IMG/VR virus record: IMGVR_UViG_3300007515_000003
Span: 34,824-98,823 of that record
DNA from: a virus
DNA: 64,000 nt
Reading direction: 5' to 3' (one strand)
The first letter of the stretch is position 1. Each line of letters begins with the position of its first letter. The notes beneath the pieces were generated by a model. That model did no database searches, had not been told where the DNA came from, and worked only from the letters and a program-made list of their open reading frames with translations. Shown piece by piece: positions 53,242 through 53,617 of the stretch. A program made the position numbers and the translations under genes.

Positions 53242-53617
53242 TGGTGGAGGTGGCGGGAGTCGAACCCGCGTCTTGTATATTATTCCATATTAGGTCTACA
53301 ACAATAGCTTATTTTCTTTTGCCTTTGGATATAAGCATCTTAGGTTCGGATCTATTATTTATTTCAACACAGTTTCTTCTCCGATGTCGGTTGTCTGTGC
53401 TTTGCAGATTAATGACCCCTTATCCTCCCTATCTGCGTCAAGAAGTAAGAGGTAGCAGTTGTTTAAGCTGCTAGGGCGAGTTCTTCCCCGCAAGCAGTGA
53501 AGTCCTCAAAACGAACAATGTTATTAGCATTTATCGCTGTATGCCTTTTAACGAAGCCGGGCATCTCTTCGTGTTGCTGTAATACTTTCAAATAACAATC
53601 GAATCCGGGACACCCCC
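53242..53617 (-). ncRNA. ssrA: tmRNA (transfer-messenger RNA)
   Basis: Transcript of 376 bases. The 5' end GGGGGTGTCCCGGATTCGAT and 3' end ACGCGGG-TTCGACTC-CCGC, CACCTCC, ACCA pair as the acceptor stem with a G3-U70 wobble for alanine. A tag frame starts at a GCT resume codon (leftward from 53529): ANNIVRFEDF, then TACGEELALAA, TAA. It ends in LALAA, the degradation signal. It rescues stalled ribosomes. It is much longer than the tRNA-like element at 7038, and complete. A phage-encoded tmRNA is uncommon. No smpB gene was seen here. Confidence 0.95.

Follow-up and report, generated by a model that had tools for sequence, protein, structure and literature searches.

A complete tmRNA gene and a predicted TLD-only mini tmRNA in one phage genome

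The window analysed here, a stretch of 64,000 nucleotides taken from a virus record 98,823 bases long (positions 34824-98823), carries a full-length gene for tmRNA, which rescues stalled ribosomes, on its minus strand and, on its plus strand, a 73-nt mini tmRNA limited to the tRNA-like domain (TLD) (Table 1). The full gene is called by ARAGORN at exactly 53242-53617, with the tag ANNIVRFEDFTACGEELALAA, and is matched end to end by RF00023 (128.4 bits where the gathering score is 47, E = 7e-50, covering model positions 1-374 out of 374). A repeat Rfam run limited to a slice of 400 bases aligned poorly and only locally. The original prediction of a complete phage tmRNA at this position, for which no strand had been given, is borne out by both programs, and its G3-U70 pair and full tag frame are present as well: the acceptor stem forms all seven pairs, A73 and the CCA end can be read from the sequence, and the frame runs uninterrupted through 21 amino acids with an LAA-type hydrophobic end to a stop codon located inside hairpin P5. 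Disruption of the pseudoknots or of the tag region had been named in advance as evidence against a tmRNA; PK1-PK4 and the tag frame are intact, and a knot equivalent to PK1 is built from different sequences in the relatives. The minimum-energy folds were unremarkable (z = -1.96 and -1.14) and were left out of the evidence. The promoter-like site upstream is suggestive only, since shuffled sequence has as many such sites as this region or more, and a synteny comparison of the tmRNA neighbourhood found no conserved protein-coding neighbour. Short direct repeats (gtggtttcttctgacgtttc...) lie near the gene at 52310-52380, within the ORF at 52286-52609.

A pattern describing P5 and PK2 matches 14 viral records, in all of which RF00023 scores above its cut-off. 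Tags could be read in seven distinct tmRNA sequences, all of which end in LALAA with synonymous changes in the underlying codons; the upstream part of the tag varies within the lineage, being ANNIVRFEDFTACGEELALAA in the window and GNKNRVKAFGLKAKKLALAA, GNKSRIKAYSPKSESLALAA and similar sequences in the others. At the fourth pair of the acceptor stem, the window and L404 have G-C, and the other relatives have C-G. Across these 14 records, the phage lineage has evidently kept a gene of the 53242-53617 type as a tmRNA. ARAGORN reported no tmRNA in three of them (L393, L394 and L402), and the tags of L393 and L394 were not readable by script. For L135, L389, L390, L395, L397 and L399-L401 it gave the tag ANNYMATKTVLKLLA, and where the frame that closes with the conserved P5 stop was checked, it reads GNKNRVKAFGLKAKKLALAA; the ANNYMATKTVLKLLA tag is likely to be a miscalled frame in these records.

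The tag had also been put forward as a fingerprint of the host clade, a use that does not hold, because relatives of the phage carry the different tag GNKNRVKAFGLKAKKLALAA; host assignment from the tag was rejected on this ground. The rIIB matches to cultured phages are all below 60% identity. One-piece tmRNAs are found in the mycobacteriophages Bxz1, Cali and Wildcat and in Bacillus phage G. The supposed rarity of phage tmRNAs is overstated: they are uncommon but well known, with 402 cases in a survey that covered 18,146 phage genomes (2.3%; PMC9004378), and huge phages carry them too (PMC7162821). The window gene shares with the one-piece tmRNA (ssrA; RF00023) the G3·U70 TLD, the GGATTCGA D loop, the LALAA tag end, four pseudoknots and an encoded CCA, and differs in its long tag, which is unlike that of its phage relatives, and in being accompanied by a second, TLD-only RNA in the same genome. 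On its own, the full phage tmRNA is of an ordinary, known kind; the surprise is the mini.

The mini is laid out as GGGGATG-ATT-GGATTCGA-hairpin-GAC-T arm-CATCTCC-ACCA. It retains a tmRNA-type TLD, with a G3·U70 acceptor, a GGNTTCGA D loop and a T arm, and is devoid of a tag frame and of pseudoknots, a single P2-like hairpin standing in place of the mRNA domain. Its RF00023 score is above the gathering score, and a covariance model built without it matches it with E = 3e-12, the second-best match of that model being a tRNA-Leu at 24.9 bits. Originally described as a tmRNA-like fragment, the 7038-7110 unit is, judged from its sequence, a complete TLD-only tmRNA, and it belongs to a large family. 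Its interpretation as a tRNA was rejected, a D stem with an anticodon arm being absent from it and RF00005 not being a reported match, and so was a two-piece (permuted) tmRNA, as the 5' end precedes the 3' end in one continuous unit. ARAGORN missed the mini in its run on the window, calling neither a tmRNA nor a tRNA there. Sites of the type of the promoter-like sequence upstream are no more numerous than in shuffles, and the ORF adjoining the mini has no relatives outside this virus.

Table 1. Features of the two RNA genes in the window, and minis in two cultured phages (positions refer to the window unless an accession is given).
Feature	Position	Strand	Details
Complete one-piece tmRNA gene	53242..53617	minus	376 nt, CCA encoded; ARAGORN and RF00023
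tmRNA acceptor stem, 5' arm GGGGGTG	53611..53617	minus	pairs with 53246-53252; 7/7 pairs, G3·U70
Tag reading frame ANNIVRFEDFTACGEELALAA-stop	53463..53528	minus	gene positions 90-155; resume codon GCT
Pseudoknot PK1 (ACGAAG/CTTCGT crossed by ATGCC/GGCAT)	53541..53572	minus	6+5 pairs
Hairpin P5 (TAGCAG/CTGCTA), encloses tag stop	53453..53473	minus	6 pairs
Pseudoknot PK2 (CCTCTTA/TAAGGGG crossed by GCAGAT/ATCTGC)	53404..53452	minus	7+6 pairs
Pseudoknot PK3 (CACAG/CTGTG crossed by TCGGA/TCCGA)	53346..53399	minus	5+5 pairs
Pseudoknot PK4 (CCT..GAT/ATC..AGG crossed by GCTTAT/ATAAGC)	53307..53344	minus	3+3+6 pairs
Sigma-70-like promoter TTGACA-17-TATACT	53972..54000	minus	upstream of 102-aa ORF and tmRNA; 11/12 matches
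TLD-only mini tmRNA (predicted)	7038..7110	plus	73 nt; RF00023 56.5 bits, hold-out model 62.2 bits
Mini acceptor stem	7038-7044/7100-7106	plus	7/7 pairs, G3·U70
Mini D loop GGATTCGA, tmRNA type	7048-7055	plus	
Mini P2 hairpin	7056-7060/7075-7079	plus	
Mini T arm	7083-7099	plus	
Mini ACCA	7107-7110	plus	
Sigma-70-like promoter TTGACT-17-TATTAT	6857..6885	plus	~150 nt upstream of mini; 10/12 matches
Mini in Stenotrophomonas virus Jojan60	ON045087.1:37722-37804	minus	overlapped by hypothetical-protein CDS
Mini in Streptomyces phage pSt2308	PV588686.1:33356-33436	plus	

The genome of the virus is about 200 kb in size and includes genes for rIIA, rIIB, DNA ligase, a clamp loader, an IMPDH-like protein and an acyl-carrier protein; it is apparently that of a large, virulent tailed phage. 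An ORF on the minus strand at 9027-9749 matches PF17338 (Gene product 88; E = 1e-45). Record IMGVR_UViG_3300009104_001827 (211,117 bases) represents the same virus, the compared stretches being 99.2-100% identical, and contains both the full tmRNA and the mini. Since this near-identical 211-kb record has both, misassembly of a single record is an unlikely source of the pairing. Within a 3-kb stretch around the mini, the two records differ only by 26 SNPs at 5565-5763; this 200-base cluster falls within an ORF at 5395-5895 with weak similarity to HAD hydrolases, and recombination or diversification is a possible origin. In two related viruses, 203 and 194 kb long (rIIB 63-64%), the full tmRNA is present and the mini is not. 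When about 80 viral records bearing a mini were searched over their entire length, a full tmRNA was found only in this virus, in its two near-identical records, although many of these records are fragments and co-occurrence may be undercounted. The earlier view that such a combination is unusual is upheld by this count. In the open-access literature, which leaves most subscription journals outside, no report of a full and a TLD-only tmRNA in one virus was found, and a TLD-only phage form was found for DS6A only.

Viral contigs scanned for the TLD-only layout gave at least 119 stretches, and bacterial and archaeal genomes totalling 257 Gb, scanned identically, gave 15. Most matches of a first pattern scan were tRNA-Ser(CGA)-like genes, and these were removed via acceptor pairing, at least six of the seven pairs being required; pairs 1-3 of the T stem were not filtered on. 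At least 90 distinct viral minis of 62-90 nt were left after the removal of tRNA-like matches, and the acceptor and T-stem pairs are complete in every one of 90 distinct sequences. Matches in S-CAM1, S-CRM01 and BUCTxx99 comprise the 3' part only and were not counted as minis. A tRNA gene lies within 500 bases of the mini in 21 of 140 mini loci. An alignment of 19 short members excluding the window mini, from which the hold-out covariance model (R1) was built, has 97.3% of its cells paired and double changes in 12 of 17 pairs, with compensatory double changes in all three stems; the covariation score is 0.449 against 0.120, a value of 0.449 being reached by none of 500 shuffles, and slid structures score 0.06-0.10.

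These observations bear on whether the mini is instead a relic at the DNA level, such as an attachment site, or a pseudogene of tmRNA, derived from an integrase or island event. Although integration often takes place at tmRNA genes, fragments of which occur in prophages (PMC9004378), the mini has both gene ends, joined by a short hairpin, the stems of the family change in a compensatory manner across many distinct viral sequences, and the presence of rIIA and rIIB points to a virulent phage. We regard an origin as a relic as extremely improbable.

Alanine identity is a constant feature of the family. One search pattern had required G3·U70, and the scan was repeated without any constraint on positions 3, 70 and 73; G3·U70 and A73 were present in 61 of 61 distinct TLD folds. 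Such conservation of acceptor identity would also fit minis that serve as decoys for AlaRS or for host defence nucleases and take no part in ribosome rescue. The usual target of tRNA-targeting defence nucleases is the anticodon loop, and the minis have none; their retention of a tmRNA-type D loop also speaks against a decoy, weakly, as the search patterns required it. Phage tRNAs have been proposed to evade tRNA-targeting host defences (PMC10264068), but we consider a decoy function very unlikely for the minis.

Minis are also present in cultured phages, namely Jojan60 and pSt2308, neither record of which annotates its mini as an RNA. A bacterial, rather than viral, occurrence was found in eight Poribacteria MAGs (L274, L275, L277, L278, L282, L283, L286 and L287), whose chromosomes bear a TLD-only gene of 86 nt within a conserved neighbourhood, adjoining an ORF of about 545 aa in most of them; six of the eight have a full tmRNA elsewhere in the genome. 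Standard tools overlook TLD-only tmRNAs, as illustrated by the ARAGORN result and by the unannotated cultured records, and these RNAs look commoner than the few cases reported in searchable papers (one phage and organelles).

The tmRNA of mycobacteriophage DS6A is little more than a TLD (PMC4131195; PMC11915505). Kinship of 7038-7110 with it is set by description only, and the virus studied here differs in having a full tmRNA as well and in its mini belonging to a family, neither of which is reported for the DS6A type in the literature found. Tag-less mitochondrial and ~65-bp plastid tmRNAs resemble the mini in having no tag frame, but both are organellar, the mitochondrial forms co-occurring with a nucleus-encoded SmpB, and the mini is viral (PMC11915505). 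A TLD-only molecule similar to that of DS6A is reported to be a strong inhibitor of tmRNA whether or not it can be charged, and titration of SmpB may be the cause (PMC4131195; PMC11915505).

Inhibition is our leading reading: the full tmRNA probably performs ordinary trans-translation, with the mini competing for SmpB and stalled ribosomes and damping tagging by the host. Starting from the observed sequences, structures, covariation, conservation and co-occurrence, we infer expression, charging, SmpB binding, inhibition and a difference in timing between the two RNAs. The full tmRNA would be processed and alanylated by the host and bound by the host's SmpB, a search of phage records for smpB having found none; it would then enter stalled ribosomes and append ANNIVRFEDFTACGEELALAA for proteolysis. 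AlaRS, EF-Tu and SmpB recognise features of the TLD that the mini keeps. Competing with tmRNA for SmpB and stalled ribosomes and adding no tag, the mini would damp tagging by the host tmRNA. The alanine identity, invariant across the family, exceeds the needs of titration and suggests that minis in general are active on the ribosome while charged; this mini, too, probably works in that way and is more than a sponge for SmpB. Inhibition alone does not explain this invariance, because it is cited for chargeable and non-chargeable RNA alike (PMC4131195). Furthermore, titration of SmpB by the mini would impair the full tmRNA of the phage as well, which counts against the leading explanation; a difference in timing as the reason for keeping both RNAs is a guess.

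The main rival is that the mini is a tag-less rescue RNA, in which an alanylated TLD, together with SmpB and EF-Tu, would take over the nascent peptide, to be released untagged, so that phage proteins would be spared proteolysis. The invariant alanine identity suggests that peptide transfer matters, and the Poribacteria genomes with both genes indicate that stable coexistence is possible. On the other hand, we know of no release step that follows a tag-less transfer, which weighs against rescue of this kind. Tag-less mitochondrial tmRNAs do persist with SmpB (PMC11915505), but the experiments cited in PMC4131195 and PMC11915505 have a TLD-only RNA inhibiting tmRNA, and we consider tag-less rescue unlikely.

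Returning to inhibition as the preferred reading, a broader proposal can be made only tentatively, and we hold it with some doubt: phages may widely encode alanine-charged TLD-only tmRNAs that redirect host rescue, and this virus, by pairing a mini with a full tmRNA, may replace host trans-translation by a phage-controlled version. Nearly all bacteria have retained trans-translation, and it is a drug target. For this process, a widespread phage family reduced to the tRNA half of tmRNA, with invariant alanine identity, would provide a natural means of inhibition or rewiring, and the presence of minis in two cultured phages makes the family testable now.
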